Positions 55,261-59,996 of a stretch of DNA of 64,000 nt are shown piece after piece. Numbering within the stretch: position 1 is the stretch's first letter; each line of letters begins with the position of its first letter. The notes beneath the pieces were generated by a model. That model did not search any database, was not told the DNA's origin, and saw only the letters and a program-made list of their open reading frames with translations. Both the position numbers and the translations under genes were made by a program. The stretch covers positions 350,957 to 414,956 of the forward strand of contig PCWG01000042.1 in the NCBI GenBank assembly GCA_002787235.1. Reading direction: 5' to 3'. The DNA comes from Nitrospinae bacterium CG11_big_fil_rev_8_21_14_0_20_45_15. GTDB lineage: Bacteria; Nitrospinota; Nitrospinia; Nitrospinales; VA-1.

Positions 55261-55542
55261 TTAAGCCGTAGACTTATTTCGTCGAAAGAGCTTACCCCAA
55301 AGACTGGGTGATTTTTCTTTAACAAAGGATTGCTCAATTGTTTTTTTACTTGCTTGATATTCGTCGATATAAAATTGGATGAGAATATGACAGGAGTGAC
55401 AACCGCCACCTGCCTTGCATGTCTGTGTGACACTTTCGATGGAACTCAAATCACCCGTAGTTATTGTGTCACGAATGGTTTTTTCTGAAACCTGAAAGCA
55501 TTTACAAATGATTTCTTCTTGATCGTCGAGAGCTTGAGTCAC
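55261..55542 (-). CDS. Bfd-like [2Fe-2S] protein
   Basis: 93 residues. The Bfd/NifU-middle-type Fe-S domain has Cys13 and Cys15 (CKC) and then Cys42, Cys48 and Cys51 (CKAGGGCHSC), matching CxC-x~30-CxxC with an extra Cys. Bfd proteins transfer electrons to bacterioferritin to release iron, or serve as Fe-S electron carriers. The C-terminal 35 residues are basic (KLFRRNK). It is downstream of the octaheme cytochrome gene by 237 bp on the same strand, so it may be regulated separately. Confidence 0.82.
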   Translation of the reverse strand: MTQALDDQEEIICKCFQVSEKTIRDTITTGDLSSIESVTQTCKAGGGCHSCHILIQFYIDEYQASKKTIEQSFVKEKSPSLWGKLFRRNKSTA

Positions 55543-55779: not shown

Positions 55780-57249
55780 TCAATTTTGGGCGTAACGTTT
55801 TTTGAATTCTTCCGCCGCCGCTTTACGTTTGCTTTTTTCCTCTTGGGACATTTTGCTCAGGAACCATTGATGTTCTTCTCGATTTAGAATTTCATTCAAT
55901 TTGGCAAGCACTTCCTTGGCCGCGGTTGCGTTACTGCCCTTTCTTCGGATCGCTTTCCGACAGGCTTTCTTTACTTCAGGAACAAAGTGAATATAGAAAC
56001 GTTCTGCGACTTCAAAAAAACCGTGCCATTGAGTATAATCCGGAGCCATCATTGAAGCACCGTGACGTGCTCTTCTGCCTTCATGGTGCCATAGGTAGAA
56101 GTAGGTCCACTCCAGCTCTTCATCGAATGCGGTTGGCGTTAAAACGCCACCAGCTTTCATCATGTTGATGATTTCCGTTGCCGGTTTTCCGAATTTGTCA
56201 TTGTACAGGTTGATGGCACTGTCAAATTGTGTGTAGAAACCATCCACATAACTTTCGGAGTGACACTTGCTACAAACATTCTTCATATTATCTCGGCGAT
56301 CTTCCCAAGACTCGACCGTTTCACCTGCCTTGATTGCCTTGGCATCGATCTTCTCTGAGACAGGAGGACGTAGATTCCATGATATCCGTCTACCTACGTC
56401 GTGGGTGACTTCCATATCGTCCGTCGCACTCATATGACAGGTTGCACAGGTTGGAGCGGCTGTGTACTCGATGCCAACACGCCATGGCTGTGCGTCCAGT
56501 TTCATGTCATCTTTAAAAGCCTTGAAAGCGATACCGTGTTTGGATTCCTCGTAGATTTCTTTTTGAGGATGATCGGGCCCCATATGACACTTGCCGCAAC
56601 TATCAGGTTGCCGGGAAACGGATACTGAAAATTGATGGCGTGAATGACACGCGGTGCAAGACCCTTTACTGCCATCGGGATTGATTCGTCCTATCCCTGT
56701 ATTGGGCCAGGTGGATGGATCGGGACGCCCGTTTTCCATTATCTTTACTACAGAGCCATGACATTGCCAGCAACCATTGATTGCCGCAGGGGATTGACCG
56801 TCCAGTCCCAGGCGACCGGTATTGCCTTCCACCACTTCCGCCAGCACATTGTCCAGAGAGCCAAGTATCTTGCCAGCATCGGCATGGTGGGAGGATTGAA
56901 ATTGTTCATTTTCTTTACTATGACATTTGGAACAATCGGCAGGGGAGACGATGACAGCAATCAGTTTACCCTCATGTTCCCATGCGTCCTTATCTGTTTT
57001 TTGAGCTTCATGGCAGTCGATACAACCAACACCGCGCAAGGCGTGCTTGCTGTTGCGCCATTGTTCGACTAATGAAGGGCTGGTGCTGGTATGGCACTCA
57101 ACGCATCTTTTGCTGGTTTGGGAAATTTTTATAGCCGCTTTTTTCCCGACCACGCGTTTGTTGTTTTCGACAGCACCAACGACCAATAGCGCGCCAAGAA
57201 AAAACACTCCGATAATTAAAATGACTATTCTTTTTGTATTGAGAGACAT
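55780..57249 (-). CDS. Membrane-anchored octaheme cytochrome c of the HAO family
   Basis: 489 residues with an uncleaved N-terminal membrane anchor (about 8-27). Eight CxxCH sites begin at Cys49, 76, 106, 160, 198, 218, 268 and 326. The spacing and the C-terminal segment RRARHGASMMAPDYTQWHGFFEV match hydroxylamine oxidoreductase-like octaheme proteins. Whether the Tyr that cross-links the catalytic heme 4 is present cannot be decided by eye; Tyr405 in APDYTQWHG is a candidate. It is 23 bp after the cytochrome b gene, so it is in the same operon, where a cytochrome c1 or f would be expected. Confidence 0.88.
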   Translation of the reverse strand: MSLNTKRIVILIIGVFFLGALLVVGAVENNKRVVGKKAAIKISQTSKRCVECHTSTSPSLVEQWRNSKHALRGVGCIDCHEAQKTDKDAWEHEGKLIAVIVSPADCSKCHSKENEQFQSSHHADAGKILGSLDNVLAEVVEGNTGRLGLDGQSPAAINGCWQCHGSVVKIMENGRPDPSTWPNTGIGRINPDGSKGSCTACHSRHQFSVSVSRQPDSCGKCHMGPDHPQKEIYEESKHGIAFKAFKDDMKLDAQPWRVGIEYTAAPTCATCHMSATDDMEVTHDVGRRISWNLRPPVSEKIDAKAIKAGETVESWEDRRDNMKNVCSKCHSESYVDGFYTQFDSAINLYNDKFGKPATEIINMMKAGGVLTPTAFDEELEWTYFYLWHHEGRRARHGASMMAPDYTQWHGFFEVAERFYIHFVPEVKKACRKAIRRKGSNATAAKEVLAKLNEILNREEHQWFLSKMSQEEKSKRKAAAEEFKKRYAQN

Positions 57250-57272
57250 TTTCTTTTCTTCAAATTAGAGGG

Positions 57273-58349
57273 TTAAGTTATTGCTTCCCATACAGTCAGA
57301 ACTAAGTAGAAAGTAAAACCGAAAAATCCGATGATGATACTCATTTCATATTTTGGAAGAAGCTTGACCAGTATTTGATCTATAAAGGGCCAGAAAAAGA
57401 TCACACCCGCAAAAAAGATCTGCCCTAATATGCCAAGGTACACATTCGTTAGTTTTAGCCATTTGAATGAAGCGTAAAAATACCATTCGGGTTTGATGTG
57501 CTCGGGTGTTGATAATGGATTGGCGCGTTCTCCCAATCCTGCGGGAAATATCACAGCCATCATGCTGAGAATATAGAAAATCAACATGACGAGAATGAGT
57601 TCTGTCATCACATGGTCGGGGAAAAGCGGATACGTTTTATGCTTAAGAGACTTTTCTTCATCAAATTCAAATTCGGTGACACCGTGTAATCGTACGAAAA
57701 TAATATGCAATCCGACCAGACTCGCCAGAGCGGCAGGAAAGATAACGACGTGAAAGACATACAGCCGGGTGAGGGTGTTGGCTCCTACCTCAGGTCCGCC
57801 CCGAATAAAATCTGATGCAAAAGGTCCAACTATTGGAACACTGTGAGCTATTTCTGTTCCCACCACAGCCGCCCAATAAGACAGTTGATCGTATATCAGG
57901 GAATATCCTGTAAATCCCAATCCAAGGATGGTGAAGAAAATAACAACACCCACCATCCAGTTCAATTCCCGTGGCTTTCGGTAAGCGTTGGTGAAATAGA
58001 CGCGAGCCATATGAAGTATAACGGTTACAATCATCAGCTCTGAAGCCCATTTGTGCAGGCTTCTGATGTACCAGCCAAATTTTACTTCGTGAGTTATTTT
58101 TGAAACACTGCTGTAAGCTTCTTCAGGAGTTGGTACATAGTAGAATAGCAAAAAAATGCCAGTGACGATTTGAATGCCAAAAAGGATAGCGGGTGTGCCA
58201 CCCAAGGCAAACCACCAATGTTTTAAATGATTTGGAACGGGTTCATTTGTAATGGTTTTCAATTCCTGCCAATCGACAGGAATTCGTTTTTTGACCCAAT
58301 CCAATGCAAGATCAATCTTAGACTCGCTCACTATAAACCTCTTCGACAT
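57273..58349 (-). CDS. Cytochrome b of a Rieske/cytochrome b complex (b6 + subunit IV in one chain)
   Basis: 358 residues with seven membrane helices (four of the b6 type and three of the subunit IV type). Heme His pairs: HKWASELMIVTVILH (13 residues between) and HVVIFPAALASLVGLH (14 between), the latter a b6f-like spacing. The Qo motif is PEWYFYASFKWLK. The b6 Cys that binds heme cn (FYCLGG) is Ala here (WFALGG), so that heme is not expected. The start overlaps the Rieske gene by 32 bp. Oxidises quinol and passes electrons to the Rieske protein. Confidence 0.93.
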   Translation of the reverse strand: MSKRFIVSESKIDLALDWVKKRIPVDWQELKTITNEPVPNHLKHWWFALGGTPAILFGIQIVTGIFLLFYYVPTPEEAYSSVSKITHEVKFGWYIRSLHKWASELMIVTVILHMARVYFTNAYRKPRELNWMVGVVIFFTILGLGFTGYSLIYDQLSYWAAVVGTEIAHSVPIVGPFASDFIRGGPEVGANTLTRLYVFHVVIFPAALASLVGLHIIFVRLHGVTEFEFDEEKSLKHKTYPLFPDHVMTELILVMLIFYILSMMAVIFPAGLGERANPLSTPEHIKPEWYFYASFKWLKLTNVYLGILGQIFFAGVIFFWPFIDQILVKLLPKYEMSIIIGFFGFTFYLVLTVWEAIT

Positions 58350-58776
58350 GAAGATAAATGGCTTGGTCTACAACTTCGACTTTGTACTTATTCAATGGTT
58401 TTGGAGGGGGCCCTTTTATCACCTTACCCTCTGCGTCGAAATATCCATCGTGGCAGGGGCAGTAAAATACATTTTCTGATTTTTTCCAAATAACGGTACA
58501 GCCAAGATGGGTGCATTTGGTAGAAAGGGCGATGTACTCTTTCCCTGTATTGACAATGGCTATTTTGTTGCCTTTGAGATCGTTGAATTTATAACTGTCA
58601 CCAACGAGAATTTTATCCGTCGTTGCGACAAATACCTTACGGGTTGGGGGTTTGCGCATGGATGGAAATAAAAATTGAACGGCGTAAACACTCCATAAGA
58701 CCAACCCCGCAAATAAACCGCCTCCCATCAAAGTGGTGGTTATGAAATCGCGTCTTGAAATTTTTTTAATTGTCAT
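58318..58776 (-). CDS. Rieske iron-sulfur protein
   Basis: 152 residues. N-terminal Tat-type SRRDF followed by one membrane helix (about 15-35). Box 1 CTHLGC and box 2 CPCHDGYFD bind the 2Fe-2S cluster through two Cys and two His; the disulfide Cys are present. Box 2 has Asp where most bc1 and b6f proteins have Gly-Ser (CPCHGS). It is the first gene of the operon with cytochrome b and octaheme cytochrome. Confidence 0.94.
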   Translation of the reverse strand: MTIKKISRRDFITTTLMGGGLFAGLVLWSVYAVQFLFPSMRKPPTRKVFVATTDKILVGDSYKFNDLKGNKIAIVNTGKEYIALSTKCTHLGCTVIWKKSENVFYCPCHDGYFDAEGKVIKGPPPKPLNKYKVEVVDQAIYLHVEEVYSERV

Positions 58777-59063: not shown

Positions 59064-59414
59064 ATGCATTGTAAAACTTTTAAAGTATTTGTCGGATGGA
59101 GTGTGTTGGCATTTTCCCTTTTTATTTTTGTACAGCCCTGCTTGGCGAATGATGAAAAAGGTGGGGGTGACATTTGGTTCAAGGATACTAAAAGCCTGCC
59201 CCCCGTCCTATTCAGCCATGACCGGCATTTAAAAACTGGAAAAGTTTGTGCTGATTGCCATGACAAAATTTTCAAAAAAGAAAAAGGAAATCCTGAACAA
59301 GACAAAAACATAAAAATGAGAAACTTCAAGAAAGGCCAGTATTGTGGGTCATGCCATGATGGGGAGACGGCTTTTTCTGTAAAATCATCTTGTAATAAAT
59401 GCCACAAACCCTAG
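59064..59414 (+). CDS. Small periplasmic triheme cytochrome c7-type
   Basis: 116 residues with a Sec signal peptide (cleavage near LAND, about residue 29). Three heme sites: CADCH, CGSCH and CNKCH. The c7/c3-type context is clear in LFSHDRHLKTGKVCADCHDKI, where the first His pairs with a later heme. Such cytochromes move electrons between periplasmic enzymes. Its promoter region is shared with the divergent Rieske operon. It is separated from the monoheme cytochrome gene (minus strand) by 72 bp. Confidence 0.9.
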   Translation: MHCKTFKVFVGWSVLAFSLFIFVQPCLANDEKGGGDIWFKDTKSLPPVLFSHDRHLKTGKVCADCHDKIFKKEKGNPEQDKNIKMRNFKKGQYCGSCHDGETAFSVKSSCNKCHKP

Positions 59415-59486: not shown

Positions 59487-59996
59487 CTAATAAGAAGGCT
59501 CTGAACTGTGTTTCTCTGAAAAATGTCTAATGTAATGAATCAACTGCCATATTTGTTCGTCTGCCAGTCCCTTAAAAGCTGGCATAGCGGTTCCCGGTGA
59601 TCCATTTTGTATGATCCAGAATAATTGTCCGTCTGGCAGAGAGTCCATGGCTTGTGCGCAGGTAAAATTTCTTGGACTGGGGGTCAATTTACGTAATAGA
59701 ATGCTCAAGCCATTGCCACTGATACCATGACACACTCGACAGGGGCCGGGGACGGCATCAAAGTGAAATAATGTTTGGCCTGCAAAGATATTCCTTTCCG
59801 TTGGCTCCAAGGGATTGACTCGATTCAAATACTCGTCGGGAGCTTTTGGTGTGCTTCTTTTTTGCGGGCATAGGGGCTCGAACACCAATCCCTCCTCCAC
59901 TTTCATTCCCGGATGAGATGCCAAGGTCAGGCCCCAAGAAGACGGTGCTGGAATAAAAACACCTAAAGTTATCAAGAAAAGAATTGTTCGGATCAT
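59487..59996 (-). CDS. Secreted monoheme cytochrome c
   Basis: 169 residues with a Sec signal peptide (about 1-22). One CRVCHG heme site, followed by LRKLTPSPRNFTC and the axial-ligand segment GSPGTAMPAFKGLADEQIWQLIHYIRHF, typical of class I cytochromes c. The N-terminal 80 residues after the signal peptide have no heme. It is likely a soluble periplasmic carrier. Located between the c7-type gene and the oleB end, it does not share an operon with either. Confidence 0.88.
   Translation of the reverse strand: MIRTILFLITLGVFIPAPSSWGLTLASHPGMKVEEGLVFEPLCPQKRSTPKAPDEYLNRVNPLEPTERNIFAGQTLFHFDAVPGPCRVCHGISGNGLSILLRKLTPSPRNFTCAQAMDSLPDGQLFWIIQNGSPGTAMPAFKGLADEQIWQLIHYIRHFSEKHSSEPSY

Follow-up and report, generated by a model that had tools for sequence, protein, structure and literature searches.

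The window analyzed here is a 64,000-nucleotide stretch of Nitrospinae bacterium CG11_big_fil_rev_8_21_14_0_20_45_15 (contig PCWG01000042.1, positions 350,957 to 414,956), and it contains three adjacent genes that encode a Rieske protein, a cytochrome b, and an octaheme cytochrome c (the triad). All three genes, and the features mapped within them, are on the minus strand. The Rieske gene (window positions 58318–58776) encodes a 152-residue [2Fe-2S] subunit (PF00355, E = 2.6e-14). It overlaps by 32 bp with the gene for an unsplit b6-type cytochrome b of 358 residues (57273–58349; PF00033, E = 2.8e-53; PF00032, E = 5.8e-10). A 23 bp gap separates cytochrome b from the gene for a 489-residue HAO-fold cytochrome c with eight CXXCH motifs (55780–57249; PF13447, E = 5.6e-29). 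The three proteins have one domain set each, Rieske, Cytochrome_B with Cytochrom_B_C, and Multi-haem_cyto, and the E-values for PF00355, PF00033, and PF13447 show that the matches did not arise by chance. The open reading frames, domains, overlap, and gap confirm the initial annotation, which had described three genes in one overlapping or closely spaced unit. The octaheme is the sole c-type subunit encoded within this unit. A promoter scan of the triad gave no signal above the chance level. The unit is probably a quinol:nitrite reductase that forms ammonium, and its octaheme would take the position held elsewhere by cytochrome c1 or f.

The Rieske protein and cytochrome b are of the b6f type. 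The Rieske protein has an N-terminal anchor with an RRDF motif and the canonical ligand motifs CTHLGC (58498–58515) and CPCHDGYF (58438–58461). Gly and Phe occupy the positions of Ser and Tyr in the high-potential Rieske motif CPCHGSxY. Ser and Tyr raise the redox midpoint potential of high-potential Rieske proteins, as is known from bc1 mutants, and their loss predicts a lower potential for the window protein. Cytochrome b combines the b6 part and the subunit IV part in a single chain, and its nearest solved structures are cytochrome b6 and subunit IV. The four b-heme His ligands are spaced H-X13-H and H-X14-H, the second pair showing the 14-residue spacing of the b6f type, and the Qo motif is PEWY (57480–57491). 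The heme-ci Cys of b6f is absent. Its position, within FALGG (58194–58211), is occupied by Ala.

The octaheme begins with a hydrophobic anchor (residues 8–27; 57169–57228). Residues 3–32 form a single helix in the predicted structure, which is a confident model (pLDDT 85.8, pTM 0.80). An uncleaved-looking hydrophobic N terminus is present in 21 of 21 octahemes linked to Rieske/b genes and typically consists of S-L-N-x-K followed by roughly 20 apolar residues and then a charged segment. In most octahemes linked to NrfH, NrfD, or b561, the N terminus is an ordinary signal peptide with A-x-A at its end; anchors and signal peptides were distinguished by eye rather than by a signal-peptide program. 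The octaheme of locus L104 also carries the anchor, and its contig ends before any Rieske/b gene. The initial annotation had described an anchor and an octaheme that replaces cytochrome c1 or f, and had suggested a possible quinol-linked enzyme. The data support this reading. The anchor is present, and no other feature speaks as strongly for an octaheme at the cytochrome c1/f position. As the only c-type subunit of the unit, the octaheme would fill that position in a quinol-linked enzyme.

Foldseek with the octaheme model retrieved the HAO fold family, and the fold, the eight CXXCH motifs, and PF13447 make the protein an HAO-fold octaheme of the OCC superfamily. The nearest solved structure by both sequence and fold is Ignicoccus IhOCC (PDB 4qo5; sequence E = 7.5e-47, Foldseek E = 1.1e-17), followed by Kustc0458 and HAO. 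Alignments reveal a segment inserted between hemes 4 and 5, NTGIGRINPDGS (56668–56703), that is common to IhOCC and missing in HAO, HDH, and HAOr-type proteins. The best match and the insert place the octaheme in the IhOCC-type branch, but the identity to IhOCC is only about 25%. Parey et al. (2016) describe IhOCC as membrane-associated in their title, and we know of no Rieske/cytochrome b partner for it. The window octaheme falls far below the HDH cut-off of the curated NCBIfam model NF052343 (70.6 bits against 900). It does not resemble the Thioalkalivibrio-type octaheme nitrite reductase (ONR) or NrfA either. These folds are distant (Foldseek E = 0.24 for 3f29 and 0.2–0.6 for NrfA), and all eight motifs are CXXCH with no CXXCK.

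Motif order and alignment to the heme-4 CXXCH of HAO identify the fourth CXXCH (CWQCH, residues 160–164; 56758–56772) as the predicted site of the active-site heme 4. A Pro-Asp-His motif lies at residues 225–227 (56569–56577). Asp226-His227 align with Asp267-His268 of Nitrosomonas europaea HAO, the catalytic pair of that enzyme, and they are invariant in 50 of 50 and 20 of 20 sequences. Arg294 occupies the site of the HAO active-site Tyr334. The Arg is invariant in 50 of 50 sequences, whereas some members of the NrfH-linked class-level group carry Glu or Lys. The initial annotation proposed an alignment for the heme 4 Tyr cross-link. In the oxidative HAO and HDH enzymes, this Tyr is linked to heme 4 of a neighboring subunit; the alignment found Trp instead. 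Tyr491 of HAO 6m0p (precursor numbering; 467 in the mature protein), within GGWTYTEG, aligns with Trp408 of the Trp408-His409-Gly410 motif (56020–56028), and W-H-G is invariant (50 of 50). A P460-type hydroxylamine oxidase is unlikely because the cross-link Tyr is replaced throughout.

The absence of this Tyr bears on the direction of electron flow. The initial annotation allowed a nitrogen compound to be either oxidized or reduced directly to or from the quinone pool. Oxidation of hydroxylamine or another nitrogen compound, with the electrons passing through Rieske/b into the pool, is very improbable. The octaheme belongs to the HAO superfamily and Rieske/b complexes are reversible, but we know of no ammonia oxidation in these hosts and the cross-link Tyr is uniformly Trp. 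In the literature, octahemes with this Tyr are regarded as oxidative and those without it as reductive (PMC12758564). Reduction is therefore predicted for the window octaheme, and only the half of the earlier claim that draws electrons from the pool is retained.

We surveyed 77 Nitrospinota genomes for the triad. The octaheme (at least 76% identity) was present in 13, and the triad-type cytochrome b (at least 71% identity) was present in the same 13. None of the 77 genomes had one without the other. The two genes are adjacent in all 13 carriers, and the Rieske gene is adjacent as well in 11 of the 11 loci whose contig reaches far enough. The initial annotation had raised the prospect that the octaheme is always separately encoded in relatives or belongs to a family without a membrane complex. 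Neither was observed. As many as two further types of cytochrome b occur in most Nitrospinales genomes, and with 13 carriers among 77 genomes the triad is accessory and patchy.

A scan of genome contigs gave 568 relatives, of which the best 79 loci were kept. The Rieske-cytochrome b-octaheme order occurs in 11 loci outside Nitrospinota. With taxon names as in the records, which are mostly metagenome-assembled genomes (MAGs), the loci are from KSB1, two Chlorobiota, two Bacteroidales, Poribacteria, Candidatus Anammoxibacter, Solibacteraceae, Spirochaetia, a planctomycete, and UBP7. They span about eight nominal phyla (KSB1, Chlorobiota, Bacteroidota, Poribacteria, Planctomycetota with Candidatus Anammoxibacter among them, Acidobacteriota, Spirochaetota, and UBP7). 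Pairwise distances across 21 triads were strongly correlated (Mantel r = 0.956 for octaheme-cytochrome b, 0.932 for octaheme-Rieske, and 0.957 for cytochrome b-Rieske; 0 of 2000 permutations as high), although species kinship inflates these correlations and the values show co-inheritance, not contact. The Rieske/b label requires 2 changes on the octaheme tree compared to 18.2 when shuffled, and all five partner groups require 5 compared to 38.2. The alternative partners of the homologues are an NrfH/NapC-like cytochrome, a set of NrfD, ferredoxin, and tetraheme proteins, and a nine-heme b561 protein; no partner was recognized in 27 of the 98 labeled octaheme loci. These data illustrate a general principle, in which one family of predicted octaheme reductases is combined with several quinol-oxidizing modules and the anchor is kept in the Rieske/b version.

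The octaheme could instead be an electron wire only, in a variant complex III that delivers quinol electrons to a monoheme cytochrome c, which passes them to NXR partners or oxidases, or in one that runs backward, with no catalysis at heme 4. A gene for a 169-residue monoheme cytochrome c (59487–59996, minus strand; PF13442, E = 2.5e-9) lies near the triad, and one of the same cluster is near in 8 of 10 Nitrospinota loci. This protein is a possible electron carrier by association only. A large octaheme c subunit is likewise part of the core Nitrospina complex III, which the host genome carries at a second Rieske/b locus encoding a Rieske protein, a split b6/IV, and an 895-residue octaheme composed of monoheme cytochrome c domains. 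However, the core genome already supplies a complete Rieske/b complex there, and the HAO fold, the invariant Asp-His, and the active-site motif order of the window octaheme argue for a catalyst. Homologues with NrfH- and NrfD-type donors are also what is expected of a terminal enzyme. We regard the wire-only role as decidedly improbable.

The published complex III of Nitrospina gracilis (PMC3578206) resembles the triad in that one operon, in the same phylum, encodes a Rieske protein, a cytochrome b of the b6 type, and an octaheme c protein. It differs from the triad in its split b6/IV and in its 895-residue octaheme of monoheme domains. The triad was considered as a candidate for this complex and rejected, because the complex III operon occupies a separate locus of the same genome. 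The separate locus and the 895-residue, monoheme-domain architecture likewise show that the published ‘atypical octaheme’ (PMC3578206) is not the window octaheme. The host has a third cytochrome b locus (L079:7618-8640; contig C37, about 585,700), which is unsplit, has a degenerate Qo motif PPWQ and no recognized Rieske gene, and is found in most Nitrospinales. It fits the published ‘second copy’.

The gene neighborhoods of the homologues bear on the substrate. Class-level relatives (families f5 and f9) have the octaheme beside an NrfH/NapC-type cytochrome, several with ammonium transporters, PII, and glutamine synthetase. A gammaproteobacterial homologue locus includes AmtB and MFS transporter genes, and the Chlorobiota loci have the order Rieske-cytb-OCC-napA-napG-napH. 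The Amt, PII, glutamine synthetase, AmtB, and nap neighbors point to nitrite reduction to ammonium. The same quinol-fed complex might instead reduce nitrite to nitric oxide (NO), or reduce hydroxylamine or NO in detoxification. Kuenenia HAOr, which lacks the Tyr cross-link, forms NO from nitrite (PMC12758564), reductive octahemes are promiscuous, and the host NirA covers assimilation. We judge these products unlikely in view of the Amt, PII, glutamine synthetase, AmtB, and NapA neighbors, the Nitrospira expression data that favor ammonium supply, a fold nearest to IhOCC rather than HAOr, and Arg294 at the site of HAO Tyr334. An apparent molybdopterin neighbor in locus L111 was discarded; it was in the wrong reading frame and had no family match.

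Formation of ammonium by a quinol:nitrite reductase would proceed as follows. The Rieske protein and the Qo site of the b6-type cytochrome b would oxidize (mena)quinol. The Rieske cluster would hand the high-potential electron straight to the octaheme, which is predicted to be membrane-anchored at the cytochrome c1/f position, and heme 4 would carry out the six-electron reduction of nitrite to ammonium in the periplasm. The observed basis is the three genes and the cofactor motifs they encode, the obligate linkage and shared inheritance of these genes, the loss of the cross-link Tyr with retention of Asp-His, and the homologues with other quinol dehydrogenases. We infer that the proteins form a physical complex, that nitrite is the substrate and ammonium the product, and that a Q-cycle conserves energy.

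The host genome (3.37 Mb in 45 contigs, 97.5% completeness) is that of a nitrite oxidizer, because an 1151-residue protein at the start of contig C37 is a full-length match to NXR subunit A (7b04). The named relatives of the window triad are Nitrospinaceae. No NrfA above the cut-off was found in the host genome. The triad may function in nitrite assimilation or, at low oxygen, in an ammonification of nitrite that might conserve energy. We also entertain, as a tentative idea that we hold with some doubt, a single electrogenic (Q-cycle) quinol:nitrite reductase of which the octaheme is an integral part. With it, a marine nitrite oxidizer would respire nitrite, and via reverse NXR also nitrate, to ammonium at low oxygen. 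The unit would then belong to a widely transferred module, the octaheme reductase of which swaps among at least four kinds of quinol dehydrogenase.

Several observations weigh against the nitrite-to-ammonium assignment or an assimilatory role for it. The host genome encodes a NirA-like protein (534 bits, slightly below the 594-bit cut-off), and assimilation alone would therefore not require the triad. A NirA orthologue (at least 60% identity) is present in 7 of the 13 triad carriers. This co-occurrence makes a purely assimilatory role less certain, and the triad is not a simple NirA replacement. The window gene list has no amt, glnK, nap, glnA, or amtB around the triad. Most octaheme homologues in Calditrichota adjoin a pentaheme protein and not Rieske/b. 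The Nitrospira ONR and the Caldithrix eHao, discussed below, are likened to the window octaheme by gene order and description. Finally, the function of this octaheme branch is a sequence-based prediction. The idea that the octaheme substitutes for NirA in genomes that lack it was examined and rejected, as there was no clear anticorrelation.

Other genes lie close to the triad and its homologues. A triheme cytochrome c7 of the nanowire_3heme family (59064–59414, plus strand) is transcribed divergently from the Rieske gene, and a small BFD-like [2Fe-2S] protein (55261–55542, minus strand) is encoded 237 bp downstream of the octaheme. A CarboxypepD_reg-like secreted protein of about 270 residues, together with the monoheme cytochrome, adjoins the triad in 6 of 10 Nitrospinota loci (L068:6260-7084, L076:11664-12467, and four more) and is missing from the window. 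The Calditrichota pentaheme protein, of about 500 residues, follows the octaheme homologue in loci L224-L229, L232, and L233 and is perhaps another quinol dehydrogenase partner. Candidatus Anammoxibacter has a second Rieske/b locus (L219:7005-11348) with a Rieske protein, a 371-residue cytochrome b, an N-anchored protein with nine CXXCH motifs, and a Tyr-containing HAO, with ammonium transporters nearby. It also encodes a protein very near Nitrosomonas HAO (L177:856-2592; 6m0p, E = 7e-253) with the cross-link Tyr and a C-terminal hydrophobic anchor.

If the proposed function is correct, some Nitrospinota, the main marine nitrite oxidizers, could reduce nitrite to ammonium with quinol electrons, and nitrification would be tied to ammonium supply in oxygen-poor water. 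The names of two carrier bins, SI048 and SI073, suggest an origin in Saanich Inlet. A Rieske/b donor, unlike NrfH donors, could conserve energy during nitrite reduction.

The Rieske/b-octaheme arrangement has already been described in Nitrospira, with a similar set in Caldithrix, and the Nitrospinota case is apparently unreported. The words octaheme, hydroxylamine, and HAO are absent from the main text of a Nitrospinota comparative study (PMC10839748), and a study of nitrifier MAGs from the tunnel in which several carriers originated mentions only unspecified multiheme clusters (PMC11995701). The initial annotation compared the triad to anammox complexes. In the anammox complex Kuste4569-4574 (PMC12954380), cytochrome b is split, and a separate hexa/octaheme subunit is accompanied by a further HAO-like protein and by an NAD(P) oxidoreductase. 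It shares with the triad a Rieske/b complex, a multiheme c instead of cytochrome f, and an HAO-like octaheme. The window cytochrome b is unsplit, however, and its unit has neither a separate multiheme subunit with an additional HAO-like protein nor an NAD(P) oxidoreductase gene. The analogy is only partial, and the Nitrospira and Caldithrix systems are nearer.

Caldithrix abyssi forms ammonium from nitrate although it has no Nrf, and it encodes Nap together with Rieske/cytochrome b and eHao (Cabys_2558-2556; PMC5317091). As in the triad, the genes for a Rieske protein, a cytochrome b, and an octaheme without the Tyr ligand are adjacent, and direct transfer from Rieske/b to the octaheme was proposed. 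Unlike the triad, the Caldithrix set is linked to nap, and a periplasmic enzyme was proposed. In Nitrospira moscoviensis, the octaheme nitrite reductase gene has two upstream Rieske/cytochrome b genes and is transcribed at a high level when nitrite is the sole source of nitrogen (PMC6606698). The Nitrospira japonica ONR gene is near glnA, amtB, and glnK (PMC5767232), and ONR is not expressed with ammonia in this species (Nitrospira sources PMC6606698, PMC5767232, and PMC12342949). Across Nitrospirales, petBC adjoins ONR in most ONR genomes and NapC takes its place in a quarter (PMC12342949). The window triad is away from glnA, amtB, and glnK and its host has a NirA-like protein, whereas the Nitrospira ONR hosts are mostly without NirA; clustering of the Nitrospira type is seen instead in the NrfH-linked class-level relatives of the window octaheme. 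The exchange of petBC for NapC in some Nitrospira lineages is paralleled among the relatives of the window octaheme. The triad is like the Nitrospira ONR system in its order of Rieske/cytochrome b genes followed by an octaheme and in its nitrite-oxidizing host, and electron donation from the quinone pool has been proposed in Nitrospira.

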